DNA of 64,000 nucleotides, taken from contig CAJXQI010000006.1 in NCBI GenBank assembly GCA_913058395.1, positions 62,001 through 126,000 of the forward strand, read 5' to 3'. The DNA comes from an uncultured Colwellia sp. GTDB lineage: Bacteria > Pseudomonadota > Gammaproteobacteria > Enterobacterales > Alteromonadaceae. This document shows positions 5,219 through 23,813 of the stretch, one piece after another (within the stretch, counting starts at the first letter, position 1; every line of letters starts with the position of its first letter). The translations under genes were made by a program, and so were the position numbers. The notes beneath the pieces were generated by a model. It had not been told where the DNA came from, made no database searches, and saw nothing but the letters and a program-made list of their open reading frames with translations.

Positions 5219-5342
5219 AATACGTGAGCAGCATAGTCAATACAACTGCTTAGTGAGCAACACGAAAAACAAAAATGTGGATACTAGGAATAAATGAATG
5301 AATGGACTAGAGCTGCGTATTTAAAAAGTATAGGTATTGAAA

Positions 5343-8047: not shown

Positions 8048-8838
8048 AAAAAATTATTTTATTTAGTACTTTATTAATAGTCTCTGTTTTTGTTGCTAGT
8101 CATTTATATCACGCGCCTGAATCAATTCCAGAAATTAATTGGGAAAGTATAGCAAGCCCAGGAAGTTTAAGCTCAGCTCATTCATTTTTGGAAGCAGACT
8201 GTTTGGGGTGTCATACACCAATAAGTGGTGTAACAAGAGATAATTGTGTTACTTGCCACGCAAATGATGTTCATATCCTTCAGCGTCAACCAACAGTGTT
8301 TCATGCTGATGTGGCAGACTGTGTTGCTTGTCATAAAGAACATCAGGGGAAATTAGCTTCTATCTCACAAATGAACCATGAAGGACTTGTAGATACAGGC
8401 TTCTTGATGTTACCAGATAATTCCATCAAATTTGATGAAGGCACAGAGAGATTAAACCTTTTAAAAAATCTACTGAGTCATGGCAAAAAAGTTGATCCTG
8501 TATTTATTCATCAAGACGTATCGCCTAAAGAAGCTCTATTAAATTGTGCCCAGTGTCATAGCAATGATGATCGCCACTTTACATTGTTTGGTGATGATTG
8601 TGTTCAATGTCACCAAACAACCCAATGGTCTTTACCTGAATTTATTCACCCTTCTAATAGTTCAATGGATTGTAATCAATGTCATGAAGCCCCCCCTAGT
8701 CACTACATGCAACATTTTAAGATGATTTCTGCAAAAGTTGCAGGGGAACCAAAAGCAAAAGTCGAAGAGTGCTATGTCTGCCACCAGAATACTTCTTGGA
8801 ACGATATTAAACGAACAGGTTTGTATAAACATCACTAA
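8044..8838 (+). CDS. Membrane-anchored heptaheme cytochrome c
   Basis: 264 aa. ATG 8044 is chosen for the ATGA overlap and because a signal-anchor follows at once (residues 3-20). Seven CxxCH heme motifs are visible: CLGCH, CVTCH, CVACH, CAQCH, CVQCH, CNQCH and CYVCH. The paired spacing and extra His residues (HIL, HKEH, HFTLF) recall cytochrome c3/NapC-type multiheme proteins with bis-His ligation. It should be periplasmic and accept electrons from the upstream membrane subunit. Heme attachment would need the Ccm system, part of which is encoded at 29459-33933. No terminal reductase is encoded beside it, so the acceptor is unknown. Confidence 0.88.
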   Translation: MKKIILFSTLLIVSVFVASHLYHAPESIPEINWESIASPGSLSSAHSFLEADCLGCHTPISGVTRDNCVTCHANDVHILQRQPTVFHADVADCVACHKEHQGKLASISQMNHEGLVDTGFLMLPDNSIKFDEGTERLNLLKNLLSHGKKVDPVFIHQDVSPKEALLNCAQCHSNDDRHFTLFGDDCVQCHQTTQWSLPEFIHPSNSSMDCNQCHEAPPSHYMQHFKMISAKVAGEPKAKVEECYVCHQNTSWNDIKRTGLYKHH

Positions 8839-8855
8839 TTATTTGGAGTATTAAA

Positions 8856-10079
8856 TTGTTGTTAAGTACTATTGCTGTTGTTATAACAGTTGTTGTGGGG
8901 TTAATCTTATTTAACCATAAAATTCGCTTATCCTCACAATGGCGAGCTACTGTTACGCCCTTAGCTTCGATCATAGGAAGTGGCTTTTTGATTGTAGCAC
9001 CTCTTCTTCACTCCATTATGGGAAAGTGGGCATTGCTAGGCATGATTGTTCTTTCCTTGTTTGCTTATAGCATAGGTGGTGTAATCCGTTTTAATATTAA
9101 GTACGCAGAAAAATACATAGCTAGTAATGAAGAAAGTAAAATAGCTAAATTGGAAGTCATAGGCCAATGGTTTCTTGGTGGTGCCTATGCTATTTCAGTC
9201 GCTTTTTATATTAGCCTTTTTTCAGCTTTTATCTTTGATCGTATTGGTGTTACAGATTTAACAATAATTAAGTTAATTACAACGTTAATATTATTAGTCA
9301 TTATGATAATAGCATGGCGAAGAGGTGCAAAAGGCTTAGAAGTTATTGAGCTATACGCAGTTACTATAAAATTGGCCATCATAGTAGGTGTTCTAGCTGC
9401 CTTGCTAAGTTATGATATATCGACTGGAACTGAGTGGTTCCAGCATAACCCTATTAGTAGTCTTGGGCTTATTGAGACTTTAAGCATCCTCGGTGGTATG
9501 TTGATGGTAACTCAAGGCTTTGAAACAACGCGATTTATGGGAGGGCAGTATTCTGTTACTCAAAGAATAAAAGCAGTTAAATATTCACAAAATATTGCTA
9601 CTTTACTTTACGTTCTTTTTATTGGTCTTACTTGTCCAATATTCCTCACTTTTCCAATTGTCGAGTTAAATGAAACAACAATTAGCCACACATTAGGGCA
9701 GGCTGTTTGGATCTTACCTTTCTTATTGCTTATTGCTGCAACAGCGAGCCAATTAAGCGCTGCATTAGCTGATACTATTGGTGGTGGTGGACTGTTAAAG
9801 GAATTAATAAAGTTCAGTTTATCGACCAATATTTACTATATGCTAGTTATATTGCTTGCAATAGCGCTTGTATGGTCTGCCGATGTATTTCAAATAATAA
9901 ATCTCGCGTCAAAGGGATTTGCTCTCTACTATCTTGTGCAAACAATTATTGCATCATTATTGCTACTTAAACAACCCCAAAAGAATTTAGGTTTATGGCT
10001 TAAATTTTTAGGAACAATTTTTATTATCATATTACTCATCCTTATTATTGGTTGGTCGATCCCTGCTCCTCACAGTTAA
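8856..10079 (+). CDS. Polytopic membrane protein, transporter-like
   Basis: 407 aa with about eleven hydrophobic helices. It begins with TTG at 8856, supported by TTGGAG 7 bp upstream; no ATG is near. The early segment SIIGSGFLIVAPLL, a glycine-broken helix, is like helix 1 of amino-acid/cation symporters of the LeuT/APC fold. I recognise no specific family and no substrate residues. It follows the heptaheme cytochrome by 17 bp and is likely in the same operon. It might import a cofactor or substrate for the electron chain, which is speculation from position only. Confidence 0.6.
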   Translation: MLLSTIAVVITVVVGLILFNHKIRLSSQWRATVTPLASIIGSGFLIVAPLLHSIMGKWALLGMIVLSLFAYSIGGVIRFNIKYAEKYIASNEESKIAKLEVIGQWFLGGAYAISVAFYISLFSAFIFDRIGVTDLTIIKLITTLILLVIMIIAWRRGAKGLEVIELYAVTIKLAIIVGVLAALLSYDISTGTEWFQHNPISSLGLIETLSILGGMLMVTQGFETTRFMGGQYSVTQRIKAVKYSQNIATLLYVLFIGLTCPIFLTFPIVELNETTISHTLGQAVWILPFLLLIAATASQLSAALADTIGGGGLLKELIKFSLSTNIYYMLVILLAIALVWSADVFQIINLASKGFALYYLVQTIIASLLLLKQPQKNLGLWLKFLGTIFIIILLILIIGWSIPAPHS

Positions 10080-10320
10080 AATTCATAGCTTAGTATCCAA
10101 GAAAGATATAGCTTTGAATTTACTAAAGTATAATTTTTTCTGAAGGGGGTTATTTGATAGTAAAAAGTAACATGTTCATATAGGTATCTTGCTAATGAAT
10201 AACATTTTGGTTTTGAAATATACTGAATTTTATATTTTTAATAGTCCAGCTACTATTATGGTGTGAACCTAGGTTTAACTCACACCTTAGTTGTTGATAA
10301 TTAAGAGGTTATTTTTATTT
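10080..10320. other. Gene-free spacer with a long hairpin
   Basis: No gene seen. A dyad GGTGTGA...TCACACC (10260-10286), with an inner AACCTAGGTT palindrome, can form a hairpin, but it has no T-run and is 180 bp from the upstream stop. It may be an operator rather than a terminator. Confidence 0.4.
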
Positions 10321-10337
10321 TTGGCTCTGTATTTGCA
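10321..10337 (+). promoter_or_regulatory. Sigma-54 promoter of orphan fliE
   Basis: TGGCTC-N5-TTGCA matches the -24/-12 consensus TGGCAC-N5-TTGCW, with GG (10323-10324) and GC (10335-10336) exactly 12 bp apart. The predicted start of transcription is near 10348, 34 bp before the fliE ATG. Sigma-54 control fits fliE, which in polar-flagellar Vibrio-type hierarchies depends on the FlrC activator. Confidence 0.7.
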
Positions 10338-10381
10338 TTGTAAAAAAGTAATGATGTAATTTTGACACGAGTGAAACTAAA

Positions 10382-10696
10382 ATGACTACGATAGAAAATT
10401 CTCTTTATACACAAATGCAGAGTATGTCTCTTGAAGCTATTAATAAACCTTCAAATAATACTAATAATTCAAGTGATAAATTTGGCAATTTACTTGTAAA
10501 TGCTCTTAATTCTGTAAATGATTTACACAAAGATTCTGGTAAGAAAGTAACAGCATTCGAGCTAGGTGATAGAAGTGTAACATTAGCTGATGTGATGATT
10601 TCAGGTGCTAAAGCAGGTATCGGCTCTAGCGCAGCTATTCAAATTCGAAATAAAGCCATTGAAGGATATAAAGAGATCATGAGTATGCCTGTTTAG
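10382..10696 (+). CDS. fliE: Flagellar hook-basal body protein FliE (orphan)
   Basis: 104 aa, the usual FliE length. The C-terminal half carries the family signature: FGNLLVNALNSVNDL, AFELGDRSVTLADVMI, then IQIRNKAIEGYKEIMSMPV. FliE joins the MS ring to the proximal rod and is exported without a cleaved signal. It normally heads fliEFGHIJ, but here no other flagellar gene lies within 50 kb on the right or 10 kb on the left. The only neighbours are diguanylate cyclases. A sigma-54 promoter directly upstream suggests it is still under flagellar control. The ribosome site is weak. It may be a second copy or a relocated sole copy; this window cannot tell. Confidence 0.85.
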   Translation: MTTIENSLYTQMQSMSLEAINKPSNNTNNSSDKFGNLLVNALNSVNDLHKDSGKKVTAFELGDRSVTLADVMISGAKAGIGSSAAIQIRNKAIEGYKEIMSMPV

Positions 10697-10895
10697 TTAC
10701 ACTCTGTATGATCTTTCTTACCCCTTGGAAGGTAACAATTATAGGCTGCCTCCTTTGTTTATAAAAATCAAATGGATAATGGATTAATTATTGCCTTGAA
10801 GTGAAGTTGTTATTACTCATGTAAAGAGCAATATATAGTTTAGGAAATATTTAATGATCATTTTTAATATGAAAATTGATCTGAGGGATTAATCG

Positions 10896-11795
10896 ATGCT
10901 GTCATTAAGTGAAAATGAGTTATCTCAAAAAATATTTGAATTTTCTAATGATGGAATTTTTGTTCTTTCATTAGATGAAAATAGCATTATAGAAGTAAAC
11001 CCTGCTGCGACAAAAATGCTAGGCTTCTCAAGGGAAGAATTACTTGCGATGAGTATTTCAGATATCCACCCTAGGGAGATGAATTTATTACAAGAATTTG
11101 CAAATCGAGTGTTGGTAAAAGGTGCTGGTTGGACAAATGAACTAACGTGTCAAACTAAAAGTAAAAAGCTACTTTTTGTTGAAATATCTGCTTCGATAAT
11201 AACTATGGAAAATCAAAAGTATTTAATTTCTATGGTTCGTGATATTAGTGGTCGTAAGCAAATGGAAGCACAGCTACGAATGTTTTCTTTTACCGATGGA
11301 CTAACAGGGGTCGCTAATAGGCGCAAGCTTGATGAATATATAGATATCGAGTGGCGTAGAGCTATGCGCAATCAGTTGCCAATATCCATTATTATGATCG
11401 ATATAGATTATTTTAAGTTATATAACGACACATATGGCCACCTACAAGGTGATAGTTGCCTAAAGACAGTAGCAAATGTAATTCAAAAATCTCTCATTAG
11501 GCCCGGCGACTTTTGTGCTAGGTACGGAGGTGAAGAGTTTTTTGTATTATTACCTGATACCGATGAAAAAGGTGCTCTTCACATTGCGCATAGAATAGAC
11601 AAAAATCTAGCGAAAGAAAAAATTGAACATTGTATGTCTGACATTAGTGCTTCTGTTACTATCAGTATGGGGTTGGCTAGTATTGTTCCTAATTCAAAAG
11701 TCACCAGCTCACAACTAATCTTAGAAGCAGACCAAGTACTCTATAAAGCTAAAAAGGAAGGAAGAAATAGAGCTATTTGTTTTTCAGAAAATTAG
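10896..11795 (+). CDS. PAS-GGDEF diguanylate cyclase
   Basis: 299 aa, soluble. A PAS domain (about 8-125: FSNDGIFVLS, EVNPAATKMLGFSREELL) precedes a GGDEF domain with active-site GGEEF at 211-215. Five residues before it, RPGD fits the RxxD inhibitory site for product feedback. It should make cyclic di-GMP in response to a PAS-sensed signal. GAGGGA precedes the ATG. It stands alone, 199 bp after fliE, in the same direction and close to a second GGDEF gene. A joint role in motility or attachment is plausible but inferred. Confidence 0.9.
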   Translation: MLSLSENELSQKIFEFSNDGIFVLSLDENSIIEVNPAATKMLGFSREELLAMSISDIHPREMNLLQEFANRVLVKGAGWTNELTCQTKSKKLLFVEISASIITMENQKYLISMVRDISGRKQMEAQLRMFSFTDGLTGVANRRKLDEYIDIEWRRAMRNQLPISIIMIDIDYFKLYNDTYGHLQGDSCLKTVANVIQKSLIRPGDFCARYGGEEFFVLLPDTDEKGALHIAHRIDKNLAKEKIEHCMSDISASVTISMGLASIVPNSKVTSSQLILEADQVLYKAKKEGRNRAICFSEN

Positions 11796-12214
11796 AATTT
11801 ATGACTTACTGATTCAGCCTTTCTAAGTATCAAATTTATTCTTCAAATGCTTCGAACCAAATGCATATTCTCAACTCTATATAGAGTCAGTCTATTTTTA
11901 AGTTTAAGACGATTGTAGTGTTTCTCTGAAAGAGGGGCTGAGTCTTTGGAACAATCTACATAGAGTTTTTGTAAAAAATATCCCACGGATGATGCTCTAA
12001 TCGAACAATTTAAAACGCCATCTTTCATATTAAATCCTGAATTGGCCATTACATTACATAAAAAAGTTGATGCTGGGAATGTAATAAAGGCTTTCTATAT
12101 TTACAAAAAGACACTAGGTGTGTCTATGTCTCATGTTTTTTTCCTTGTACTATAGTTGGTTAAAGTTCATCAATAGATATTATGATGATTTCTTGGCTAA
12201 TAAGAGGAGTAATA
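11796..12214. other. Spacer between the two GGDEF genes
   Basis: I see no convincing gene. A 68-codon minus-strand frame (11843-12049) lacks a ribosome site and any recognisable family, so it is not called. The last bases carry the AGGAG (12205-12209) used by the next gene. Confidence 0.4.
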
Positions 12215-12976
12215 ATGGTAAACCTTTCAACGGTTGGTTACGTAGTGTTGAAAATTGCTATAGTGATATCTATCTCTCAGCTTTTTATTCTCTTTTTTTT
12301 GGGAAATATTCCCCATACGATGGTTGGAAAGACTGTCGCGTTTACCCATTTAGCATTCCTAGCCTTATTAAACATGACTTTATTAGTTATAACCACTTCA
12401 CCAATTATTTATTTTTGGGTAATTAACCCATTTGTGAAAGCTCGTGATGAAGCCGTTCTAGAAGCCACACACTTAGCACACTATGATCAACTTACTAACT
12501 TAGGTAATCGTAGATTGATTTATCAAAATTTAGAAAAGATAAAAGCACAATGTGATCGTAGAGAAGTATTTGGTGCTGTAATGCTTTTAGATTTAAATAA
12601 ATTCAAGCCTATAAATGATGAATACGGCCATGATGCGGGAGATGCCATACTGGTCTCTGTTGCTAATCAATTGATTAAAGTTGTACGGAGTGAGGATTTA
12701 GTTGGGAGGTTTGGTGGAGATGAGTTTGTCGTGGTAATAAGCCACCTAGATTATGAGGAGTCTATAGCTAAGGACAAAGCACAAGTTATTGCTCAAAAAA
12801 TTCAATCTGCTGTTCGTAAACCAGTTGAATTCAATGGTAGTAAAATAGATGTTTGCTCCAGCATTGGGGTATGCCTTTTTAAAAAAAATGATAAAGGAAA
12901 TGATGAATTAATTAAAATGGCTGATACAGCTATGTACAAAGCCAAAACTTCTAGTGCCAAGATTATGATTTGTTAG
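12215..12976 (+). CDS. Membrane-anchored GGDEF diguanylate cyclase
   Basis: 253 aa. The start is put at ATG 12215 because AGGAG lies 5 bp upstream; ATG 12182 in frame has none. Two N-terminal membrane helices (about 4-30 and 42-72) lead to a GGDEF domain with HYDQLTNLGNRR, the metal-site DLNKFKPIND, RSED five residues before the active site (inhibitory RxxD) and GGDEF at 167-171. It should be an active cyclic di-GMP synthase with product feedback. The short sensor region has no recognised ligand domain. It converges on the HU gene with a shared terminator between them. Confidence 0.88.
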   Translation: MVNLSTVGYVVLKIAIVISISQLFILFFLGNIPHTMVGKTVAFTHLAFLALLNMTLLVITTSPIIYFWVINPFVKARDEAVLEATHLAHYDQLTNLGNRRLIYQNLEKIKAQCDRREVFGAVMLLDLNKFKPINDEYGHDAGDAILVSVANQLIKVVRSEDLVGRFGGDEFVVVISHLDYEESIAKDKAQVIAQKIQSAVRKPVEFNGSKIDVCSSIGVCLFKKNDKGNDELIKMADTAMYKAKTSSAKIMIC

Positions 12977-13002
12977 TTTGTTTTAATTAAAAAGCGGAGG
13001 TT

Positions 13003-13029
13003 AAATGGATATAAGCCTTATATCCATTT
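13003..13029. terminator. Bidirectional terminator between GGDEF gene and HU gene
   Basis: A 12-bp perfect stem (AAATGGATATAA with TTATATCCATTT) and 3-nt loop lie between the two converging stops. The A-rich left and T-rich right flanks allow termination in both directions. Confidence 0.75.
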
Positions 13030-13038
13030 TGTTGATGA

Positions 13039-13314
13039 TTAAGAATTACAAGCATCTTTTAGTGCTTTACCTGCTTTAAAGCTTGGAACTTTGGCTGCTG
13101 CTATTTGAATTTCAGCACCAGTTTGAGGGTTACGACCTTTGCGTGCAGCTCGATTATTGACTTTATATGTGCCAAAACCTACTAATGCAACTTCACCACC
13201 ACTGGCTAACTCTTTTGTAACGCTTGTAATTAAACTGTCTAATGCGCGACCCGCAGAAGCTTTTGTAATATCAGAGCCAATAGCTATTTTTTCAATTAAT
13301 TCAGACTTATTCAT
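13039..13314 (-). CDS. HU-family DNA-binding protein (second copy)
   Basis: 91 aa from the ATG at 13314, with AAAGGAAT upstream on the minus strand; the open frame extends further but without signal. It begins [10 protein letters not shown] and contains the HU signature [21 protein letters not shown] and the terminal [12 protein letters not shown]. It is close to, but clearly different from, the core HU at 28701. HU bends DNA as a dimer. It is divergent from a serine resolvase 198 bp away, and several resolvases need HU to build their synaptic complex, so a shared role is plausible. A mobile-element HU could also silence or protect island DNA. Confidence 0.92.
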
Positions 13315-13424
13315 TTTATTATTCCTTTTGAGTTTTTTTTGCTGAATGAATAATACTAAAAAGTGAAGGAAGGGCAATAGAAAGAAGTAGCTTACTTTTA
13401 AATCGTCCGAAAGATGTCTTTATG

Positions 13425-13487
13425 TTTCGTTCATGCACGAAATTGCTTTTATTGACATTCGTACACTTGTACCGTAAGGTGTACGAA
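13425..13487. promoter_or_regulatory. Paired dyads and promoter upstream of the resolvase (candidate res site/operator)
   Basis: Dyad 1: TTCGTACAC (13458-13466) and GTGTACGAA (13479-13487), a 9-bp perfect inverted repeat. Dyad 2: TTTCGT (13425-13430) and ACGAAA (13437-13442). Both share TTCGT/ACGAA half-sites. A TTGACA -35 box (13452-13457) with a poor -10 (TAAGGT, 13475-13480, 17-bp spacing) overlaps dyad 1, so bound protein would block transcription. Paired subsites beside the gene are typical of resolvase res sites. Confidence 0.6.
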
Positions 13488-13512
13488 AGGTGTAACTTAA
13501 GTACAGGTAATT

Positions 13513-14082
13513 ATGAAAGTTGGTTTTGCACGAGTATCAACGAAGGAACAAGAACTTGCTCTTCAACTCAAGCAGTTGGAAGAAATTGGTTGTGAAAAAA
13601 TATTTCATGGTAAACATAGTGGTGTTTCGGTTAAGAACGATGAGCAACTTAAAGAACTAATCGACTTTATTCGTGAAGGTGACGAAGTTATTGTTACTCG
13701 CCTTGATCGCCTAGGGCGATCATTAAAATCTATCCTTGATGCGATTGATAATATCCATTCAAAAGGAGCATGCCTTAACATTATTGACGGTTCGCTTAAT
13801 ACGAGTAATGATAATCCATTCTCTAATGCGATGATCAACTTGTGCGGAGTTTTTGCTCAATTAGAAAGAGATCTTATTAAAGTCCGAACCGCAGAAGGTC
13901 GGGCTGAGGCCAAGGCGCAAGGCCGACATCTTGGACGTATGCCAGCTTTAACTGAACAAGAAGGTAAGGAATTATTAAAAGCAAAATTAAATGGCGAATC
14001 AATTTCAGCTCTGGCAAGAAAATATGATGTAAGTAGGCCAACCGTCCATAGAACATTAGAACGTTTATGTGACAAGAAGTAA
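13513..14082 (+). CDS. Serine recombinase (resolvase/invertase family)
   Basis: 189 aa, standard length for small serine recombinases. The catalytic block is visible: FARVST with nucleophile Ser9, and VTRLDRLGRS with Arg63, Arg66 and Arg69. The long helix E (about 105-135) and a C-terminal helix-turn-helix (ISALARKYDVSRPTVHRTL) follow. It would cut and rejoin DNA at a short site, resolving cointegrates or dimers or inverting a segment. Candidate sites lie directly upstream, and an HU gene is divergent. No inverted segment is recognised here, so resolution seems likelier than inversion. Confidence 0.92.
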   Translation: MKVGFARVSTKEQELALQLKQLEEIGCEKIFHGKHSGVSVKNDEQLKELIDFIREGDEVIVTRLDRLGRSLKSILDAIDNIHSKGACLNIIDGSLNTSNDNPFSNAMINLCGVFAQLERDLIKVRTAEGRAEAKAQGRHLGRMPALTEQEGKELLKAKLNGESISALARKYDVSRPTVHRTLERLCDKK

Positions 14083-14166
14083 TAATTTGATTTAATTCAA
14101 CACTATTGGTATCAAAGCCTGTTTTAATAGTTAAAACCCAATAAAAATAATCAGAGAATAAAAAGC

Positions 14167-15459
14167 ATGGGTTCATACACCGATCTTTCCGTAAATGGAT
14201 ATCCAGTGGCTAGCTCCAAGAGCTATGCTATTGCAACAGTAATGACAATATTTCGTGAAACTGACAAGAGGATTTTTTCAAGAAATTTGTCTGACCGAAA
14301 TCCTGCTGTTTGGGGAACATTTGAACCAGATGAAATAGAAAGAGCTTTAACATATGAATGCCAGGTATCAAAAATTTCTGATCGTTTAGATGTCATGGGA
14401 TTTACCTTGCAACGGTGCAGGGATGATTTTGAGAGAATACGTAATAACAAGATTAATGAATATAAATCTTGGTGGAAAGAAGACCAGAGTGAATGGATAG
14501 AATCACTAATTAATACTTTAGAAAGGATAAATTTTGATGTTTATATGGCAACCCTTAAAGAAGTCTTTGATAGCAAAGAACAGTTTCACTTTCTTGAGCA
14601 TGAGGAAATAGAAAAATTAGACACTGTTAGAAAATACATGTTTTCTGATGAAGACTATGAACTTGGCTTTTTTGCAACTGACTTTAGATCGCTAATAAGG
14701 GTTGCTTGTAGTGTATCCTCTGGTAATGCGCTTGTTATACAAGATTTAACGGAAGTTTTACATGCCGGGTATTATGATGAAAGCGATGATGTTTGTAACA
14801 ATTCAATAAAAGCACTGATTCAAGATCACCCAGAAAACGCCCCTCGAATAATATTAACAGAAGGCTCTTCTGACGTTAATATTATTAAGAGATCTCTTGA
14901 GGTACTGTACCCACACCTTGCTGAGTATTATACATTTTTGGAGTTCTCCCAATTTCGTGCTCAAGGGAGTGCAGGAACTCTCGTCAATAATATAAAATCA
15001 TTTGCCGCTGCTGGGATCTCTAATCGTATTATTGCAATATTTGATAATGATGCCGCAGCTTTTGATGCCAGAAGAGTTTTATCTAAAATTGAACTCCCTG
15101 ATAACATCGCGGTTTGTAATTACCCTGATATTAAATTCTTAGAAAATTATCCAACATTAGGGCCTGGCGGTAGAGTTGACCTCAACGTAAATGGTCTGGC
15201 TGCTAGTGTTGAACTTTATCTAGGCCCGAACATCCTCAAAGAAAACGACTCAGATCTAAGCCCTGTACAATGGAAAGGATTCATCGAAGGTATTGGTAAA
15301 TATCAAGGCGAGGTCATGCACAAACGCAGTATTCAAGATAAGTTCTTTACTCGAATAAATGAATATAAAAATGACATTGATGCTTGCGATGATAGTGAAT
15401 GGAATGACTTACGAGCTTTACTAAATGTAATATTCAAAGCTTTTGATAATGTGAAATAG
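14167..15459 (+). CDS. TOPRIM-domain protein with HEPN/Toprim-type N-terminus, predicted defence protein
   Basis: 430 aa. The first residues (MGSYTDLSVNGYPVASSKSY) resemble the N-terminal domain called HEPN/Toprim_N. The middle has a TOPRIM fold: strand-Glu motif IILTEGSSDV (Glu232), and IAIFDNDAAA with Asp293 and Asp295, the metal ligands of OLD-type nucleases and primases. A canonical HEPN Rx4-6H RNase motif is not evident. Such proteins are predicted by comparative genomics to be nucleases in antiphage defence; no experiment on this one is known to me. It lies alone between a resolvase and the gamma-mobile-trio genes, a typical cargo position. Confidence 0.7.
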   Translation: MGSYTDLSVNGYPVASSKSYAIATVMTIFRETDKRIFSRNLSDRNPAVWGTFEPDEIERALTYECQVSKISDRLDVMGFTLQRCRDDFERIRNNKINEYKSWWKEDQSEWIESLINTLERINFDVYMATLKEVFDSKEQFHFLEHEEIEKLDTVRKYMFSDEDYELGFFATDFRSLIRVACSVSSGNALVIQDLTEVLHAGYYDESDDVCNNSIKALIQDHPENAPRIILTEGSSDVNIIKRSLEVLYPHLAEYYTFLEFSQFRAQGSAGTLVNNIKSFAAAGISNRIIAIFDNDAAAFDARRVLSKIELPDNIAVCNYPDIKFLENYPTLGPGGRVDLNVNGLAASVELYLGPNILKENDSDLSPVQWKGFIEGIGKYQGEVMHKRSIQDKFFTRINEYKNDIDACDDSEWNDLRALLNVIFKAFDNVK

Positions 15460-16430
15460 ATGATCCTGTTAAAATAATATAATTACTTTATCGAGAATTA
15501 AACTTTCTTAAGGCGCTACAGTTAAATTTATTGTAAAAAATATAGCTATTTATCTGATGTTTTTGAATTAATATTCATTGTGCATATCGGTATTATTTTT
15601 ACTTTGATAATAAATCTTATACTTATCAATGGGTTGTAAAGGGTGTTTTAGCTCGGTTAGTGCTGTAATCTATTGCTTTATATTTCTAAGTTATTCAATG
15701 CTTTATATGGTTGCTCTTGGTTTTATCTTTTGTTTTTTACAAGTTTTACGCTAGTGGGTGGTTTTAATGTGTTCCTATGTGAGTTTTATCAGGTTAAAAA
15801 TTATTTTACTGACTTTGAGAGAGAAATTGTTTGTGAATAATTATTCAAAATAGAGCTATTTGATCGGTAGTGAATGACACAATAGGTTAAATCCTTCAGA
15901 TAGTTTTATATTTAACTTTGAAGAATTTATTAACCCCCTAGACCTTAGCCTCTTTTTTAGTCCGCCCATTCTGTAGTGTTCTTTAATTCTTTTTTCGACC
16001 TAAAACAATAAGTGCCTACACAAAACCTGCGACTAAGCGAAGAAATGCAGTTTTATCGAGGATTTTGGGTGATTTAAATTGAAAAGCCTAGCGCCTGTTA
16101 TGACTAGTCTATATTCCTTGAAAGCAGGGGATTTAGTGAAGGAGGTTGTATATTAAAAGGGAGATCACCAACAGTTAAAATATTGATGTTTCAATGAAAT
16201 TAGCTTCCCTTTTTTGTTAAATTAAGTAATCTAAAATAACAGATTGTTAGCGTGTAGAACCTTATTTGCCATGTAGTGTAGATATTTCTAAGCAGCAACG
16301 TACACGCAAGCATGGCAAGTATTCGACCGCCTAGGGCGGGAATTTAATAATAAATATCTCTTAAAAGTTTTAAATTAAACTTTTCGTTTTCTCAAAGGCA
16401 ATTAGAATACTTAGTCAAATTCACTTCAAG
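15460..16430. other. 971-bp gene-free stretch inside the island
   Basis: No open frame with a ribosome site and family signature was found on either strand. Seen: a widely spaced dyad AAAAGGGAG...CTTCCCTTTT (about 16156-16218), and the GC-rich motif CGACCGCCTAGGGCGGG (16324-16340), which has a near copy at 20196-20211. It may hold an unannotated RNA or remnants of lost cargo. Confidence 0.4.
16324..16340. repeat. GC-rich motif, copy 1, downstream of gmtX
   Basis: CGACCG-N4-GGGCGGG followed by N4-TAATAA. The inner CCGCC/GGCGG can pair. The second copy at 20196-20211 has a 3-bp spacer and again TAATAA downstream. Each copy lies 60-110 bp past the stop codon of a gmt gene. Confidence 0.5.
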
Positions 16431-17153
16431 CTAGGTTTCTGGTGGGGTATGCAAATTGATGATTATTTCAAGAATATCTTTAAAACCCGTATCACTTAAC
16501 ACCTCATCACGCTTTATCGCTTTTAGTGCTATTAGCTCTCCAGACTCACCAAAACCTACATAGCTAGAGTTTGATACTTTTAAAAAGTCTCGCAACACCC
16601 CTATATCATCCTCATCTAAAGTTACCTCCTGTGACTCTTCATAACTTAGCTCAGCTAAAGGTTTAGATAAGGATAATTTCGGATTAGATCGAACTTCTTT
16701 CAATGTGTTGACTTGGTTACGCAGCCCCTTAACCTCGCCTAGCAATAATGCCATCTTATGTCTTAATGTTAAGTCTCCTATCTTAACAAGATCGGAGTCT
16801 TCTACGAATGATTCTGGAACAGTATCTTGTAGATCTTTGTTTGATAAATTAACAGTATTTACGGCAGTTGAGTGCTCAATCCATGCGTCAATTAACAACC
16901 TGTAAACATTTGTCGTTTTTCCATTAACAGGTTTCTTGTTATAGTAAATGGTTCTCGATTTAGTGATTATACCCTTTGAACTCAGAATTTTTATTATCGC
17001 TGGAGGCGAAACAATGCCACCTGAGCTTGTTATTTTTTGACATGTCTCATGTATGTTCGTAAGCATTTGCTCTGTCGTTGGTGTCTTTGCTTCATTCTTT
17101 AATTTGTTATATGTCGCAATAACAGTATCTAAAGAGATCTTTTTCATATTCAT
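16431..17153 (-). CDS. gmtX: Gamma-mobile-trio protein GmtX
   Basis: 240 aa, first codon at 17153. Its ATG lies 2 bp after the gmtZ stop, so the two are translationally coupled. The N-terminal part (about 3-100) is helical and may be a winged-helix or core-binding-like fold (PPAIIKILSSKGIITKSRTIYY); no recombinase catalytic residues are seen. Position, size and company match the third member of the gamma-mobile-trio set, annotated from memory as GmtX. Its biochemical role is not established, and an accessory function to the two recombinases is inferred. Confidence 0.75.
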   Translation of the reverse strand: MNMKKISLDTVIATYNKLKNEAKTPTTEQMLTNIHETCQKITSSGGIVSPPAIIKILSSKGIITKSRTIYYNKKPVNGKTTNVYRLLIDAWIEHSTAVNTVNLSNKDLQDTVPESFVEDSDLVKIGDLTLRHKMALLLGEVKGLRNQVNTLKEVRSNPKLSLSKPLAELSYEESQEVTLDEDDIGVLRDFLKVSNSSYVGFGESGELIALKAIKRDEVLSDTGFKDILEIIINLHTPPET

Positions 17154-17155
17154 TG

Positions 17156-19942
17156 TTATTTATTCTCGTTTTTTAATGATGGAACCGAATTGGCTTTTAA
17201 AAGGTTGTTTATGTCTGTGGCTTGCTTTTCTATACCAAGCTCTGCCAAAGTAGTTGAGCCATTATGCAAATTTTCAGACTCTTTCGCGCCAACTTTCGAG
17301 ATCAGAAACTTTGCCATAGCATCAGATGCTGCCGTTTTTTCTTCCTCACTAAGAGGTGAAAATGATATTGGCGTAGTGCCATTGTTTATTAATATCTGGT
17401 CAATAAAATTATTCCGTTCTAATTCAACTCTAGTATCTGCTATTTCTGGATAAATTCTACTTGCTTGAACCAGCAGATCTTTTAAATGAAATGGAGATGT
17501 CTCAATAAAATTGGTTTCTTCACCATAATTTACTTCAACAGGGATTAATTCATTGCCTTTGGTAAAATTCTCAATGTCGTCTTTAGTGGCAATTTCTCTG
17601 ACTTCTTCGAGCAAATTATATGTTGCATGAGCATCCATAATTATTCGATCTAATTCTTCAGACTTGGTTTCAATAATCGTATTGAGCGATTTTATCTCAT
17701 CAATTGTTTCAGGAGGGCACAGATGAATTTCTTTTCGTTTTTTATAACTATATTGTTCCTTTTTTAATACAGCCTGCTTTTTCTTAATAGCTTCTATATC
17801 TGTACTTATCTTACTGATGCTTTCCAATAGTTTATTACCGTGTAACCACAGTTCAATCATCCACGGTACACCAGTGACTAAATGGCGGCAGCGTACACAA
17901 TTTCCACGGCCACCGATAACAGCACCGTATTTAGCTTTTGATGATTTGGTTGCTTTTTTAATGACCTCACCACCATCATCACAACGTGTACCACCAAAGG
18001 GACAAATACCCATGCCACTGCCGCCCCAAGTCGCCATATGGCTTCTTGAAAGCATGAGGTTTTGTACACCTTCTTGCTGGTTTGCAACCAAGTAACGCAT
18101 AGCATCTTCTAATGTTGCGTCTTTTAACCAACGTTTTAAATTTTCTTTAGATTTGTTTTCTAGGTCTCTTTTGGCTTTAGATAATATGTCTGTAATATGA
18201 CCATTAGAGTATTTAATGTAATAAATGGTCATTAATATAGTTGAGTGTCCAGCGATTATTTTACTAATGACTTCAATCGGAACTCCTGCCTCAGCTAAGC
18301 TTGTAAGACCCGCTACTCTCAATCCATGTGGTGTGAATATAGATCTTTCCGGCTGATTTGTTTGTGAGTTTCGTTTAGTGATTATGTTGACATCATGACC
18401 TTCTGCTTGAACTCTTTTTTCAAGCTCTTCCATTAGTAGCCACCAAAAGCGCATCAGTTGATTATTGGTTGCGGGAAATCCAGTTTTGGAGACCAATGGG
18501 CTACGGAATAAGTAAAATCTATCAGGTGTTTGCTCTAGCACTGATTGGGAAGGTTTAGAGTCACTGTTTATACCCTTGGGCATATCTTTATATGAAGCTG
18601 GTTTTTCCACAGGAAAATATTTTTCCTGCCATTCTCGAAGGGTATGAAGGTGATTGACTAATATTTCATTATGCCAGGGAATTGTATAACCAGATTCAGG
18701 ACCAAAACCGACAGCAGCATCTTTGGTTTTATTTGTACTAATATAAAAACCTACCGATTCTTTCAATCCTGTTATATTTTTTGTCAGTACACCTCTATTA
18801 GGTTTTTGTTCTGAACGACTTGACCAATAATTTGCATGTGGAGAGTCATTTTTAACCCACGCTTTCATGATTGGATTATATTTTTCTATATCTCCCTCAC
18901 CAGAATCCAACATTTGAACCTGGATCTTTCTAAGCGGGATCTCAATCATTGTTAAAAAGGTATATGTTTGAGCCGGACACCAAACCTTCTCGATAACACC
19001 TGAGTTTTCATTAAACCAATCAAAATACTGAGACTGTATAGATTTAGGCCATTTGAAATCACCTTCCGTTAGGATTTCGTTCATGGTTAGTAGAAAACTG
19101 GTGGGTATGACTATTTTGTCTGACTCAGTTAATCCCTGAGAAAAAATACCAGTTAGTTTCTCATACTGATAAGTAGATATAAGGGGGTGACCAATTGACA
19201 ACACTTCATCATCTTCTTTATCTTGCATGTAATTCTCAATAATATAAATAGAGAATTTATAAAGGTAACTGAGGTGGGTGCTGTATGAATTAGGGTGGCT
19301 TTTCTTAAATGAATCATGCAATGGCACATGACGTTTTTCACTTAAGTATTTAAAAGGTTCTTGAATATCGTCAGGTAACGTATTTAAATAAAATAGAAAA
19401 TGTTTGATGGCACTATAATGATTCTTTGTAGATTTAACATGTTCATCATCAATCCATTCTTTGGCTAATGTAAACCATTGCTTCTGATTAGGTGTTAGTT
19501 CACTCTCTAAAGTAGAAAGGTCGGTGGAGCGTTTAATTTTTGCATATTGTGCAAAAAAATCATCTTTTGAGAGATGGGTAAGCAATAAGCCTATTTTGCG
19601 AAAGGCAATTTGATATCTTTCTTTTACCCAATCTTGATATTTAAGCGTTGGTATTTTTATTTCATCAAGCAACTCTTTCCAAAGTTCAGGAGTGACTTCT
19701 TTTAAGCTCTTAACTTTCCCAAAGCTGATAACTAAAAAAGCAATAGTAAAGATATCTTTTTCTACAGCCGCCTTAGTTTGTTCTTTTGTTTTTTTTCCGT
19801 GAACATTAACTTTTTCAAAAAGCTCAAGACACTCTTTGTGTATTGAAGAAGACCTAGCTTGTTCATCTAAATTAGCAATGTTCTTGAGCAATGTTGAATA
19901 ATCACCAACATGTAAAGGTTTAATCAACTCGGCAAATGACAT
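17156..19942 (-). CDS. gmtZ: Gamma-mobile-trio tyrosine integrase GmtZ
   Basis: 928 aa, much longer than ordinary phage integrases (300-450). ATG at 19942 has GTGAG upstream. The central part holds the tyrosine recombinase catalytic set: Arg near 336 (IPLRK), TPHGLR with His539 and Arg542, AGHS with His566, and Tyr574/575 in TIYYIKYS. Beyond it lie a Cys-rich segment (CPFGGTRC near 647, then CVRCRH) that could bind zinc, a coiled-coil stretch and a long C-terminal tail. Architecture and neighbours match GmtZ of gamma-mobile-trio islands. It probably acts with GmtY in integration and excision at the tRNA-Arg site; the division of labour is not known from sequence. Confidence 0.82.
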   Translation of the reverse strand: MSFAELIKPLHVGDYSTLLKNIANLDEQARSSSIHKECLELFEKVNVHGKKTKEQTKAAVEKDIFTIAFLVISFGKVKSLKEVTPELWKELLDEIKIPTLKYQDWVKERYQIAFRKIGLLLTHLSKDDFFAQYAKIKRSTDLSTLESELTPNQKQWFTLAKEWIDDEHVKSTKNHYSAIKHFLFYLNTLPDDIQEPFKYLSEKRHVPLHDSFKKSHPNSYSTHLSYLYKFSIYIIENYMQDKEDDEVLSIGHPLISTYQYEKLTGIFSQGLTESDKIVIPTSFLLTMNEILTEGDFKWPKSIQSQYFDWFNENSGVIEKVWCPAQTYTFLTMIEIPLRKIQVQMLDSGEGDIEKYNPIMKAWVKNDSPHANYWSSRSEQKPNRGVLTKNITGLKESVGFYISTNKTKDAAVGFGPESGYTIPWHNEILVNHLHTLREWQEKYFPVEKPASYKDMPKGINSDSKPSQSVLEQTPDRFYLFRSPLVSKTGFPATNNQLMRFWWLLMEELEKRVQAEGHDVNIITKRNSQTNQPERSIFTPHGLRVAGLTSLAEAGVPIEVISKIIAGHSTILMTIYYIKYSNGHITDILSKAKRDLENKSKENLKRWLKDATLEDAMRYLVANQQEGVQNLMLSRSHMATWGGSGMGICPFGGTRCDDGGEVIKKATKSSKAKYGAVIGGRGNCVRCRHLVTGVPWMIELWLHGNKLLESISKISTDIEAIKKKQAVLKKEQYSYKKRKEIHLCPPETIDEIKSLNTIIETKSEELDRIIMDAHATYNLLEEVREIATKDDIENFTKGNELIPVEVNYGEETNFIETSPFHLKDLLVQASRIYPEIADTRVELERNNFIDQILINNGTTPISFSPLSEEEKTAASDAMAKFLISKVGAKESENLHNGSTTLAELGIEKQATDINNLLKANSVPSLKNENK

Positions 19943-20259
19943 TTATTCTCACCCTATTTTTTATTTATCTATGGGAGATTCAAAAAACACTAAATTACTA
20001 TGAATATATCCTTTGCTTCAATTAGGCTTTCTAAACAACTTTATTTAAAGAGAGTATACTTGAACTTTATTCTATTTGAAAGTTTATTTTTGTTATTATC
20101 TTTCTATATCAATGACTTAGGTACTCATTGTGTTCCGGAAATCTAAAGTTACAATTACAACCCCCAACCAAATAAACGCTAAAATAGTAATATAGCGACC
20201 GAAAGGGCGGGCAGTAATAAGGGAAAACTATATGCTATCCGCTGAATCACTAATTAACG
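19943..20259. other. Spacer between gmtY and gmtZ
   Basis: 317 bp without a gene, AT-rich. It presumably carries the gmtZX promoter on the minus strand. It also holds copy 2 of the GC-rich motif at 20196-20211. Confidence 0.4.
20196..20211. repeat. GC-rich motif, copy 2, downstream of gmtY
   Basis: CGACCGAAAGGGCGGG followed after three bases by TAATAA; it is a near copy of 16324-16340. The two copies bracket the gmtZ-gmtX unit. Confidence 0.5.
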
Positions 20260-21780
20260 TTAAGCCTTCAATGGCTTGTTTAAAAAATCTAAGCTTGGCT
20301 TAATATACAAGGCATCCCTTGCTTCATTTAGTTTCTGTTGAATACCTTCGTTGGTAGGTTTGTTGTATGCTTCTTGAGATAAAATACTGCGATGCTTAGC
20401 ACATTTTTGGATGACTTTATTAGGAATACCAAGATCTGTAAGTGTTCCTAGATAAAAGTGCCTACTACCATATGGAGTGGTTCCATATTCTTTCCCTCTA
20501 GGGATTTTTATCCCTAATGCTACTTCTACTTTATCTAACGCTCTGTTAAATGCACCAATATAAGCACTAACACTATAAGGCAGCCCTTGATAACTTTTTC
20601 CAGTGCTATGGTCAACTCCAGAAGAAACAAAAAGAAACGGATGGATCGGATCACCATTATTTGTAGCTAACAATTCTAATTTGGGGCGGTAATGATTAAT
20701 GTAATAAATGTACATTGCATTAAAGCGTATCGCTGCTCCTTTGTGCATAAAAAATACAGGAGCGCTTAAGGAAGAATCGAGTTCTAAATCTTTCCAATTA
20801 GCGTTCATACTCTTTATGGGATGTCTATGGCGCGGTAACATCCCTCTTTGAGCCAAAAATTCTTTCCGGGTGATATTTTCTCCCGCTATAAATGTAGGGG
20901 CTTCAATAGGGTGCCGTAAAAACACCTGGCAATCGTCATGACTTTCAAAATCAACAGGAATGACATCATTAATCCATAGATGAAACGGTTCGCTCTCCCG
21001 AATCCCACCGAAAAATAATAACAGTGTAATCATCTTTGCTGTTATGTCTTCTTGATCACTCAGCAATTGAGCATTGGGATCTTTTACGAAACCATATTCA
21101 AACAAAGGGGCAATCAATTCTTCGGGAAATCTTTTTGCTTCAGAACTTGTTCTTGAACGACTACCTGAAGTACCTAGATTACTGATATTGTTATTGCTTC
21201 TATTTTTAAGTTTGATTGCTTGTTTATTGGCTTTATTTAAGTGACCTAAGAAAGATCTATTTTTGATTTTAATTGCTATATGTAGAAACTTTAAAGAAGC
21301 CATTTCATCAACAGGCTTGATGATTTTTTTATTTCTCAATAATGGTGTATTAATAATATCTTCATTATCACAATAATCTTCAAAATCTAAAATAGCGGAA
21401 CATAATCTTTTTGATACATCCAGTGAAGATGATGGCCAATACAGTTTTAATTTATCAGTGGCTGTTTCATTATCTATTGTTCCATTTAATAGTGCCCAAG
21501 AGAAAAGCTTGAATATAGTTCGATGAGCATGAAAACCATGATAGTTAATAAAGCCTTCTGATGCCCTACAGTAATCAAAGAATAAACCTACTGCTCTAGC
21601 TCTAGTTTGCATCCATTGATAACTCGCAGAAGGATTTGATATGAAATACTGAATAAGGGACTCCATCCTAGTAATGCCACTTGGAGTATTTAAATATAAA
21701 ACAGGTATAGCTAGACCTTTCATGTGTTCAACATTTTGTTTTATAATTGTATGATATTGAGGAGTTGGACTATGCTTCAT
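20260..21780 (-). CDS. gmtY: Gamma-mobile-trio tyrosine recombinase GmtY
   Basis: 506 aa. The catalytic pattern of tyrosine recombinases is present with one change: box-I Arg261 in GGIRESE, box-II TPYGSRH with Arg440 but Tyr437 in place of the usual His, AKHRS with His463, and nucleophile Tyr472 in EAYNKP. The N-terminal half should bind DNA. Size, order (gmtY then gmtZ-gmtX, same strand) and position at the island end fit GmtY. The gene ends 317 bp before gmtZ, so it is probably transcribed separately. Its start is about 175 bp from the tRNA-Arg fragment, as expected for an integrase near its attachment site. Confidence 0.82.
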   Translation of the reverse strand: MKHSPTPQYHTIIKQNVEHMKGLAIPVLYLNTPSGITRMESLIQYFISNPSASYQWMQTRARAVGLFFDYCRASEGFINYHGFHAHRTIFKLFSWALLNGTIDNETATDKLKLYWPSSSLDVSKRLCSAILDFEDYCDNEDIINTPLLRNKKIIKPVDEMASLKFLHIAIKIKNRSFLGHLNKANKQAIKLKNRSNNNISNLGTSGSRSRTSSEAKRFPEELIAPLFEYGFVKDPNAQLLSDQEDITAKMITLLLFFGGIRESEPFHLWINDVIPVDFESHDDCQVFLRHPIEAPTFIAGENITRKEFLAQRGMLPRHRHPIKSMNANWKDLELDSSLSAPVFFMHKGAAIRFNAMYIYYINHYRPKLELLATNNGDPIHPFLFVSSGVDHSTGKSYQGLPYSVSAYIGAFNRALDKVEVALGIKIPRGKEYGTTPYGSRHFYLGTLTDLGIPNKVIQKCAKHRSILSQEAYNKPTNEGIQQKLNEARDALYIKPSLDFLNKPLKA

Positions 21781-21871
21781 TATTACTCTAGTTTTGTTTA
21801 CTATTTAATCCCTGATGTTAAAGTAACATTTACTAGGGGGTAAAACAAATTTAATATATTTTAAAAAGAGG

Positions 21872-21899
21872 TTGCTTTTTAGTATTTAAACTCTATAAT
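21872..21899 (+). promoter_or_regulatory. Outward promoter at the island end, reading into the tRNA genes
   Basis: TTGCTT (21872-21877), 16-bp spacer, perfect TATAAT (21894-21899). The predicted start is near 21906, so transcripts would pass the tRNA-Arg remnant into tRNA-His and tRNA-Pro. The native tRNA promoter should have been displaced with the 5' half of tRNA-Arg, so this one may replace it. Confidence 0.6.
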
Positions 21900-21956
21900 G
21901 CACCTATTCCTTGCTTAGGCAGGTAATGTTAGGTAAATCTCTTTAGGATGTGAAAC

Positions 21957-22011
21957 GAGCAACGCCCTTCTAAGGCGTGGGTCGTAGGTTCAAATCCTAC
22001 AGGGCGCGCCA
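21957..22011 (+). pseudogene. 3' fragment of tRNA-Arg(UCU); putative attachment site attR
   Basis: Present: anticodon stem-loop (ACGCC-CTTCTAA-GGCGT, anticodon TCT at 21969-21971), variable loop, T arm (GTAGG-TTCAAAT-CCTAC), the acceptor 3' strand AGGGCGC, discriminator G and CCA. Absent: the acceptor 5' strand (GCGCCCT) and the D arm; the bases before 21957 do not fit a tRNA. Since tyrosine integrases often use the 3' part of a tRNA gene, this 55-nt block is the expected duplicated core at the right junction. Confidence 0.85.
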
Positions 22012-22017: not shown

Positions 22018-22094
22018 GGTGGCTATAGCTCAGTTGGTAGAGCCCCGGATTGTGATTCCGGTTGTCGAGGGTTCAAGTCCCTTTAGCCACCCCA
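22018..22094 (+). tRNA. tRNA-His(GUG)
   Basis: 77 nt with complete cloverleaf. The extra 5' G typical of tRNA-His is encoded (22018) and faces C22091; the acceptor is GTGGCTA/TAGCCAC; the anticodon GTG is at 22052-22054 in the loop ATTGTGA; CCA is encoded. It lies 6 bp after the tRNA-Arg remnant. Confidence 0.97.
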
Positions 22095-22125: not shown

Positions 22126-22202
22126 CGGTGATTAGCGCAGCTTGGTAGCGCACTTGGTTTGGGTCCAAGGGGTCGCAAGTTCGAATCTTGCATCACCGAC
22201 CA
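22126..22202 (+). tRNA. tRNA-Pro(UGG)
   Basis: 77 nt with acceptor CGGTGAT/ATCACCG, anticodon TGG at 22160-22162 within a CTTGG/CCAAG stem, and encoded CCA. It is 31 bp after tRNA-His and probably shares its transcript. Confidence 0.97.
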
Positions 22203-22505: not shown

Positions 22506-23813
22506 ATGCAAGTTTCAGTTGAGACTACAGAAGGTTTGGGACGTCGTATTTCGATTTCAGTTCCTGCCGAAACAGTAGATGTTGAAGTTAAAAACCGTCT
22601 TCGCCATATCGGAAAGACCCAGCGTATTAATGGTTTCCGTCCTGGCAAAGTACCACCATCAGTTATTCAAAAGCGTTACGGCCAATCAGTTCGCCAAGAA
22701 GTTGCTGGTGAATTAATGCAACGTAATTTTGTTGACGCGATTGTTGCTGAGAAATTAAACCCAGCAGGTCGCCCTGAATTTGTTGCTAAAAGCAATGAAG
22801 TTGGCAAAGCTCTTGAGTTTGAAGCAACGTTTGAAGTTTACCCTGAAGTAGCTTTAAAAGATTTAGATAAAATTGCTGTTGAGCGTCCTGCTGTTGAAGT
22901 GACTGATGAAGATTTAGACGAAATGTTTGAAACTTTACAAAACCAGCACAAAACGTGGAAAGAAAACAAACGTAAAACTAAAAAAGGCGACAAGCTAACT
23001 ATCGATTTCAATGGCCGTGTTGATGGCGAAGAATTTGAAGGCGGCAAAGCTGAAGGTTTTGACCTTGAATTAGGCTCTGGTCGTATGATCCCTGGTTTCG
23101 AAAAAGAAATCACGGGCATGAAAGCTGGCGAAGAAAAAACTATCACAGTAACTTTCCCTGACGATTACCATGCTGAACAGCTTAAAGGTAAAGACGCAGA
23201 GTTTGATATTGTAGTTCACAAAACTGAAGGTCCAATTTTACCTGAAATTGACGAAGAATTTGCGAAATTATTCGGTGTAGAAGAAGGTGGTGTTGCTGCT
23301 CTTCGTGAAGAAGTTGGCAAAAACATGGCTCGTGAACTTAACCAAGCAGTAAAAGCTAAGGTTAAAGAGCAAGTAATCGAAGGTTTACTTGAAGTTAGTG
23401 AATTAGACATTCCTGCAGCACTAGTTGCTCAAGAAGTTGAAGTTTTACGCAAGCAAGCAATGCAACGCTTTGCTGGCCAAATGGATCCAAACAACTTACC
23501 AGAATTACCAGCTGAGATGTTCGAAGAACAAGCTAAGCGTCGTGTAAAAACTGGTTTGCTTTTAGGTGAAGTAATCAAAGTTAACGAATTAAAGGTTGAC
23601 GAAGCTAAAGTAACTGAACTTATTGAGTCAGCGGCTTCTGCTTATGAAGACCCATCTGAAGTTATCGAGTACTACAAAACTAACAAAGAACTTGCTCAAC
23701 AAATGCAAAATGTTGCACTAGAAGAGCAAGCGGTTGAGTTGTTACTTGAAAGCGCTAAAGTTGCAGACAAAAAAGCAAGTTTCAAAGATATCATGAATCC
23801 TGAAGGTAAATAG
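22506..23813 (+). CDS. tig: Trigger factor, ribosome-associated chaperone and peptidyl-prolyl isomerase
   Basis: 435 aa, full family length. The N-terminal ribosome-binding domain carries a GFRPGKVP tail signature (residues about 44-51). The FKBP-type domain (about 160-245) has [19 protein letters not shown], and the helical C-terminal chaperone domain follows. It binds at the ribosome exit tunnel and holds nascent chains. TGAGG precedes the ATG. It heads the conserved tig-clpP-clpX-lon order, with a terminator before clpP, so the operon is at least partly split. Confidence 0.97.

Follow-up and report, generated by a model that had tools for sequence, protein, structure and literature searches.

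A truncated tRNA-Arg(UCU) gene marks the junction of an island that apparently replaces its tRNA target

The 55-nt fragment of tRNA-Arg(UCU) at positions 21957-22011 of the window is very likely one junction of a tRNA-replacing integrative island that carries a GmtY/GmtZ/GmtX-like gene trio. The window is the whole 64,000-nt stretch analysed, C6:62001-126000 of an uncultured Colwellia sp. genome (G000), a draft of 43 contigs. Judged from sequence, the case consists of both parts of the broken tRNA, the empty site in relatives, the trio beside the right junction, a whole tRNA gene with the same anticodon just inside the left one, and 12 further elements of this layout with three tRNA targets.

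The right junction and its flanks contain the following features, in window coordinates:
1..21956 (no strand), right-hand portion of the island; the other part of the island (56,377 bp in all) extends leftwards beyond the window
21837..21956 (+), right end of the island, with a promoter-like pair, TTGCTT (21872-21877) and TATAAT (21894-21899), facing tRNA-His and tRNA-Pro
21957..22011 (+), tRNA-Arg(UCU) 3' part, island right junction (sequence, Rfam, genome search, relatives)
21957..21962 (+), GAGCAA, 6 bp, once in the empty site and present at both junctions (compared with G014 locus L013)
22019..22094 (+), tRNA-His, intact chromosomal neighbour (ARAGORN)
22126..22202 (+), tRNA-Pro, intact chromosomal neighbour (ARAGORN)
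22506..23813 (+), tig (trigger factor), first protein gene of the chromosome past the junction (Pfam PF05697/PF05698/PF00254)

The fragment, GAGCAACGCCCTTCTAAGG...GGGCGCGCCA, is the last 55 nt of tRNA-Arg(UCU) on the plus strand, as the sequence-only reading had recognized; ARAGORN agrees with that reading that the downstream tRNA-His and tRNA-Pro are intact. ARAGORN calls no tRNA gene for the 55-nt piece in the window, and Rfam model RF00005 barely exceeds its cut-off there (29.5 bits at 21941-22003, cut-off 29 bits). We searched 59 other genomes for the locus and ran 16 loci (L013-L028; 15 from the same genus and one from the same family) through ARAGORN. All 16 present intact genes in the order tRNA-Pro, tRNA-Arg(tct), tRNA-His, tRNA-Pro, and then tig. 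The 55-nt piece sits at the ancestral position and is evidently not a chance resemblance. Elsewhere in the genome (G000:C12:131809-136569, L045), a second tRNA-His/tRNA-Pro pair has 100% identity over 193 bases to window 22014-22206, with a further tRNA-Pro 4.5 kb from it; L045 is possibly a tRNA-Pro-targeted island.

The tRNA-Pro that precedes tRNA-Arg in the relatives occupies C6:27305-27381, 34.7 kb before the window begins. Behind it, at C6:27552-27579 (~34 kb left of the window), lies the 5' part of tRNA-Arg (28 nt, GCGCCCTTAGCTCAGCTGGATAGAGCAA), identical to the same stretch in the uninterrupted relative G014. The 5' part passes directly from GAGCAA into foreign DNA at this left junction (GTATTACCCCCTAGGG / GTATTACCCCC), the right junction reads ...GATGTGAAAC / GAGCAACGCCC, and the empty site of G014 (locus L013) reads ...GATAGAGCAACGCCC. 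The two tRNA parts overlap by GAGCAA. Taken together, both junctions and the empty site therefore place the island at C6:27580-83956 (56,377 bp, 56.4 kb) with GAGCAA as the overlap, putatively the crossover or a target repeat. The G+C content of the island (0.354-0.357) is close to that of the rest of the window (0.376), and composition would therefore not reveal the island.

The left junction holds only the 5' part; therefore, the tRNA is not regenerated there, and ARAGORN calls no chimeric tRNA across it. The sequence-only reading had placed an island junction here, with the 5' half of the tRNA at the opposite junction and the left 22 kb of the window, or much of it, horizontally acquired. 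Both tRNA parts and the empty site in G014 confirm the junction, the 5' half is at C6:27552-27579, and all 21,956 bp are island. Of the two checks it proposed, an island-free relative exists, since G014 carries the uninterrupted site; an intact tRNA-Arg(UCU) to the left ending in the same ~55 nt does not, as only the 5' 28 nt are there, and the mechanism it expected, a tRNA regenerated at the other junction, fails with it. It had also held that the lack of a second 55-nt copy would speak against an island. A 64-base query over the fragment indeed finds no second copy in G000, only partial matches of 19 and 21 bases, yet the left junction and the empty site show the island itself to be real.

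A whole tRNA-Arg(tct) gene lies 185 bp inside the left end of the island (C6:27765-28060; ARAGORN, introns allowed). It consists of 77 exon bases and a 219-nt intron (C6:27802-28020) that ARAGORN places after U36, and the group I intron model, Rfam RF00028, scores 74 bits against a gathering cut-off of 50. Once spliced, the predicted product has 77% identity to the native tRNA; the replacement is therefore no recent duplicate of the host's gene. In the minimum-free-energy fold, C35 and U36 are paired with GG, an arrangement like that of a P1 helix whose 5' splice site carries a U.G pair. Read by hand, U34-C35-U36 and the first intron bases AAA would pair with UUUGGG to form P1, with U36.G at the splice site. 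Compared with shuffles, the intron fold shows no gain in stability (z -0.45), and short P1 folds are likewise weak. Folding gives no support above shuffles; the intron call therefore relies on the Rfam model and ARAGORN.

At the other end, three adjacent genes occupy 16431-21780, 176 bp from the right junction:
20260..21780 (-), GmtY-like tyrosine recombinase, 506 aa (NCBIfam NF040693, E 3.7e-82, 276.9 bits, curated cut-off 340)
17156..19942 (-), GmtZ-like integrase, 928 aa (NF047926, E 1.3e-142, 476.5 bits, curated cut-off 600; PF13009)
16431..17153 (-), GmtX-like protein, 240 aa (NF040692, 39.5 bits, curated cut-off 40; alignment)

Gamma-Mobile-Trio (GMT) islands, which carry GmtX/GmtY/GmtZ, were reportedly described by Mahata et al. 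in 2024. In an alignment of six GmtZ proteins, including that of the window, residues R338, K405, H539, R542, H566, and Y575 are invariant; we take R, K, HxxR, H, and Y to be the tyrosine-recombinase catalytic set. In the window GmtY, a Y (TPYGSRH) stands at the H of HxxR, which is H in the five other rows; this copy might therefore be altered. All three proteins score below the curated NCBIfam cut-offs (39.5/40 for GmtX, 276.9/340 for GmtY, and 476.5/600 for GmtZ). The trio is evidently homologous to GmtX/GmtY/GmtZ and outside the curated families, as a set of divergent relatives. The closest named relatives of the window integrase are three Colwellia records (89-91% identity). Compared through the NCBIfam models and the available passages of PMC12039261, the window island resembles GMT islands in having three adjacent homologous genes at one island end and mixed cargo, but differs in that the whole trio falls under the curated cut-offs.

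According to the same passages of PMC12039261, GMT islands carry anti-phage defence and antibacterial toxin genes. By Pfam, the cargo of the window island consists chiefly of copper and redox genes, plus a HEPN/Toprim protein and an adenine methylase. The copper and redox genes encode a P-type ATPase, a cupredoxin, CusB/CusF-like proteins and AcrB-type efflux (both left of the cargo in the window), a tyrosinase, and c-type cytochromes. Further cargo comprises a TonB receptor, GGDEF and HD proteins, a QueC-like protein, an Ogg-type glycosylase, and the methylase. Four genes have the following window coordinates (all Pfam):
58-2022 (+), P-type ATPase
2046-2402 (+), cupredoxin-like protein
13513-14082 (+), resolvase
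14167-15459 (+), HEPN/Toprim-domain protein

The arrangement recurs. A GmtZ search of 394 genomes of the order gives 16 genomes with a match at E 1e-30 or better, and a search of a collection of 84,980 species genomes with two short peptide patterns gives 12 loci; the resulting list of elements is a lower bound. At least 13 elements, the window island included, interrupt a tRNA gene within its D-arm; their hosts belong to Colwellia, Shewanella, Vibrio, Aeromonas, Idiomarina, and one further genus. The 12 right ends are as follows:
window; C. maritima, L143; Colwellia sp. 1_MG-2023, L145; Shewanella sp. SR44-3, L146 (G152)
Vibrio sp. J1-1, L147; V. splendidus, L148; Idiomarina ramblicola, L149; Aeromonas sp. 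RU39B, L150
A. veronii, L151 (G354); V. cincinnatiensis, L152 (G415); G055 (same genus as G415); G057

The 12 left ends are the same set minus Vibrio sp. J1-1, plus a Colwellia MAG that has a left end only. The MAG locus L144, which ends before the junction, and the distant loci L153 and L154 (27%), where no junction is seen, are not counted as right ends. Both ends are seen in 11 of the 13 elements, on one contig in eight of these 11 and on different contigs in three. Where both ends share a contig, the elements measure from ~10 kb (Idiomarina) to ~96 kb (C. maritima). In the window island and its 12 relatives alike, the D-arm is broken no more than a few bases from GAGCA. The overlap is imperfect in V. 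cincinnatiensis, Idiomarina, and A. veronii, where the left part differs by one base or is a few bases shorter; the A. veronii left part has an extra base (GGATAGTAGC). In G057, the trio is reversed relative to the tRNA parts.

In all 12 left ends, the 5' tRNA part is followed by the element end and, no more than a few hundred bases on, by a complete tRNA gene with the same anticodon. Nine of these replacement genes are Arg-UCU, and all nine have a group I intron (59.8-80.5 bits for RF00028 in the eight outside the window island). ARAGORN names eight of the intron tRNAs Arg(tct) and that of G055 Ser(gct), which we read by hand as Arg(UCU). The other three lack an intron: an Arg-CCU gene in G057 and two CAU genes, in V. 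cincinnatiensis and Idiomarina, which ARAGORN names Met. From their sequence, we take both CAU tRNAs to be Ile2.

In a GmtZ tree, 13 rows (the 12 with a split tRNA and one from Bosea) separate from four outgroup rows at 100/100, with long branches for three of the 13. A T-arm/CCA signature adjoins the trio in all nine subfamily loci from the 84,980-genome collection. Unlike this subfamily, the distant GmtZ homologues have no tRNA 3' part or such signature in any of 12 stretches of 8-17 kb around the gene, a span beyond which an island end would escape. The signature is also found in G057, in Bosea (as an intact tRNA-Glu), and once in L154, ~7 kb from a trio-like gene. The Bosea locus (L162, 18164-24504, on a plasmid of the alphaproteobacterial Bosea sp. 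ANAM02) has a GMT-like trio (31%) with an intact tRNA-Glu(CTC) directly behind GmtX. This tRNA may be another replacement; no junction is resolved at L162, and the locus is excluded from the counts.

In all six elements followed by tRNA-His (Colwellia, Shewanella, and Aeromonas; three of the six are near-identical Colwellia), and likewise in V. splendidus, the end of a -10-like box is 56-57 nt away from the junction; the other five right ends have their best -10-like box at a different position. For the pair at 21872-21899 of the window, a fraction of 0.47 of 300 shuffles is equally good, and a separate scan did not list the pair. An outward promoter that rescues tRNA-His and tRNA-Pro is not claimed: shuffles match in 0.25-0.47 of trials.

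The gene that the island breaks is single-copy in related genomes. The tRNA-Arg(UCU) pattern (at most two mismatches) is present at this locus in 15 of 16 other genomes of the genus, the exception being G007, which is 66% complete. G003 and G015 have an extra two-mismatch match elsewhere, which we read as a different tRNA. In G000, the fragment is the sole match. Among the nine genomes with an Arg-UCU island, eight have the broken 3' part as their only exact match to the intronless Arg-UCU pattern, and the ninth, a MAG, has no exact match; we read their additional matches with one or two mismatches as other tRNAs. The island thus appears to break what is apparently the only tRNA-Arg(UCU) gene of the host. 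As G000 is a draft of 43 contigs, a missed copy is conceivable, and G055 (three contigs) is the better case. AGA codons are rare yet present, with four in the 2,307 codons of four downstream chromosomal genes.

Group I introns adjoin broken tRNAs beyond this subfamily. We scanned the 394 genomes of the order, which were not selected for islands, scoring few candidates per genome, so that the counts are lower bounds; two matches below the cut-off (25.2 and 24.3 bits) are left out. The scan gives at least 13 matches in 12 genomes, with matches above the curated score in seven of these genomes. At least 10 of the 13 matches adjoin a broken tRNA, across at least two recombinase branches, and the remaining three (G159, G145, and G048) were examined with ARAGORN, G048 also by reading the sequence. 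The matches beside a broken tRNA include two sets:
D-arm set: window island, G354, G152, G055
T-arm cut, GTTC/TTAT: G389, G186, G142, G239, G407

Two loci of the T-arm set resolve into whole elements:
L108/L118 (G389) and L109/L123 (G186), 24- and 15-kb elements in the T-arm of tRNA-Arg(UCU), with terminal inverted repeats TTATATTAGGTTA...

The 3' tRNA parts of these two elements are 24 kb and 15 kb away, respectively; none is found for the G407 and C1 elements in the stretches read. Near the intron tRNA of G389, G186, and G407 are a GmtY-related tyrosine recombinase (hhalign 97.6%, E 2.8e-12), a 1,032-1,118-aa protein that matches the GmtZ catalytic region over a short stretch (90%, E 1.5e-6), and a protein of 222-224 aa. 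The ~1,115-aa protein of the G389 and G186 elements has no NCBIfam match and, in G186, no Pfam match. In G142 (L113, 10600-11420) and G239 (L117), a tRNA cut at GGTTC/TTAT is followed by an intron tRNA-Arg(UCU); in G142, this intron tRNA is itself cut at the same T-arm point and followed by an intact intronless tRNA-Arg(UCU).

The tenth intron match beside a broken tRNA lies outside the window in the same genome as the window, at G000:C1:301365-301867 on the minus strand (L111, 19365-19867). Here, a tRNA(CAU) is cut in its anticodon loop; after its remaining 5' half comes a tRNA(CAU) gene interrupted by a group I intron (95.3 bits), and an AlpA-type regulator and a BrxC-like BREX protein are neighbours. 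The 3' half of the cut tRNA is not found by pattern within C1:182001-320799.

The main competitor to our reading accepts the same element and treats the group I intron as a passenger that invaded the replacement gene, tRNA genes being common homes of such introns. We hold this to be a close call, falling just short of even. Three of the 12 replacement genes lack an intron, which agrees with a passenger; for the same reason, the intron as an obligatory part of the element was rejected. The predicted splice site lies after U36 in the Colwellia elements and after U34 in the Shewanella, Vibrio, and Aeromonas elements, and two insertion points suggest separate gains or exchanges. The Shewanella integrase is nearest to the Colwellia integrases despite the differing intron position. 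Intron positions thus disagree with integrase kinship, and the introns were therefore probably gained or exchanged more than once. In addition, bacterial group I introns occur mostly in structural RNA genes, as stated in the available part of PMC3984707. Against a passenger, however, all nine visible Arg-UCU replacement genes carry an intron, and the at least 10 intron matches beside broken tRNAs span more than one recombinase branch. The intron may hide the replacement gene from the trio, be a passenger, or lower recombination between the two copies. Our leading guess is that it breaks the D-arm/anticodon-arm target and so spares the replacement gene from its own element; this self-masking stays a guess because, in G142, the intron-bearing gene is itself broken at the T-loop.

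An ordinary tRNA-targeted island would carry part of its target, restore the gene at one junction, and leave a displaced fragment at the other. This is the usual published arrangement: in the available text on Islander (PMC4383910), islands restore the split tRNA from an attP fragment, and the crossover subsites are the anticodon loop, the T loop, and the T/acceptor junction, with none in the D-arm. The window island shares with Islander-type islands the tyrosine-recombinase family, the tRNA target with the fragment adjoining the recombinase genes, and the position between two tRNA parts. However, the intact tRNA with an identical displaced fragment is missing: the 55-nt block is unique, and the left junction, passing from GAGCAA straight to GTATTACCCCC, has a 5' part only, which refutes restoration there. 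Likewise, the break is in the D-arm in 13 elements and at none of the subsites given in that text, and a different whole gene apparently replaces the target.

As a variant, the right end could supply a new 5' half. ARAGORN calls a tRNA-Arg(tct) across the right junction, composed of element DNA and the 3' part, in two of nine loci (L145 and L148), and calls no chimeric tRNA there in the other seven loci or in the window. The two chimeras have four-pair D-stems that are half wobble, and acceptors with mismatches or several G-T pairs. At the window right junction, the best 5' strand forms only five of seven acceptor pairs, three of them Watson-Crick; over the 12 right ends, the best pairing ranges from three to seven of seven, and seven are reached only in G055 and V. 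splendidus, with four and three G-T pairs, respectively. We judge the L145 and L148 chimeras to be non-functional chance resemblances, which leaves some room for a chimeric tRNA in those strains. An ordinary island, in either form, is very improbable.

Still less credible is a functional tRNA assembled in trans from the native 5' and 3' parts, in the manner of archaeal split tRNAs. Both parts are kept, and the 5' part of G000 is identical to that of G014, but the D-arm position of the break, the extra base in the A. veronii left part (GGATAGTAGC), and the whole same-anticodon gene beside all 12 left parts argue against joining. An assembly artefact or an old, decayed pseudogene has next to no chance, for although G000 is a draft and the two ends lie on different contigs in three elements, at least five genera, assembled independently, present these junctions, with both ends in 11 elements and on one contig in eight.

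The replacement of the target at its two junctions could proceed as follows. The trio would open the single tRNA-Arg(UCU) gene in its D-arm, at GAGCAA, and join both ends of the element to it there. The native gene would be split, its 5' part staying at the left end and its 3' part at the right end. The island tRNA would then be transcribed, and its group I intron would self-splice after U36. The spliced product would decode AGA instead of the broken gene, so that reading this codon would come to require intron splicing. If the island were excised precisely, the host gene would be whole again; any imprecise loss would take away the sole source of tRNA-Arg(UCU), hence be selected against, and thus bind the host to its island. 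For one codon, the cell is probably dependent on the island.

A broader reading is conceivable, and we consider it doubtful: the lineage would live by tRNA hijack, destroying an essential single-copy tRNA at the D-arm and supplying a ribozyme-interrupted gene that makes the host dependent, with the intron marking the element's own gene against its own recombinases. Distant trio relatives would do likewise at the T-loop, so that one element could follow another, each breaking and replacing a tRNA gene in turn, as G142 suggests.

Bacterial tRNA group I introns provide a second comparison, the pre-tRNA-Ile of Azoarcus being an example (PMC3984707, in the part available). They are likewise small and in the anticodon loop (RF00028), but here the host gene is cargo of a mobile island, beside a broken native gene. 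The available text of that source (Hausner et al. 2014) does not mention a genomic island, integrase, or prophage. In archaea, intron-bearing tRNA genes have been linked to mobile-element integration (Sugahara 2012 and Randau & Soll, as cited in the accessible passages of PMC8371274 and PMC4390854), and disrupted tRNA genes have been proposed to protect against integration (same passages). Those introns are archaeal, whereas here a group I intron is carried by the mobile element itself. Among the literature titles and abstracts listed as matches, none reports this arrangement, which may nevertheless have been published; replacement of the target rather than its restoration, at a D-arm site, looks new.

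The finding breaks the working rule for tRNA islands that an element restores what it breaks, the basis of Islander according to the available text of PMC4383910. The method is built on restoration and would therefore miss these elements. They appear to remove the apparent only gene for a tRNA and to give the chromosome a tRNA that would need ribozyme-type intron splicing. They offer a bacterial test case for the archaeal idea that interrupted tRNA genes guard against integration, and a possible way for an island to become hard to lose without a toxin-antitoxin pair.
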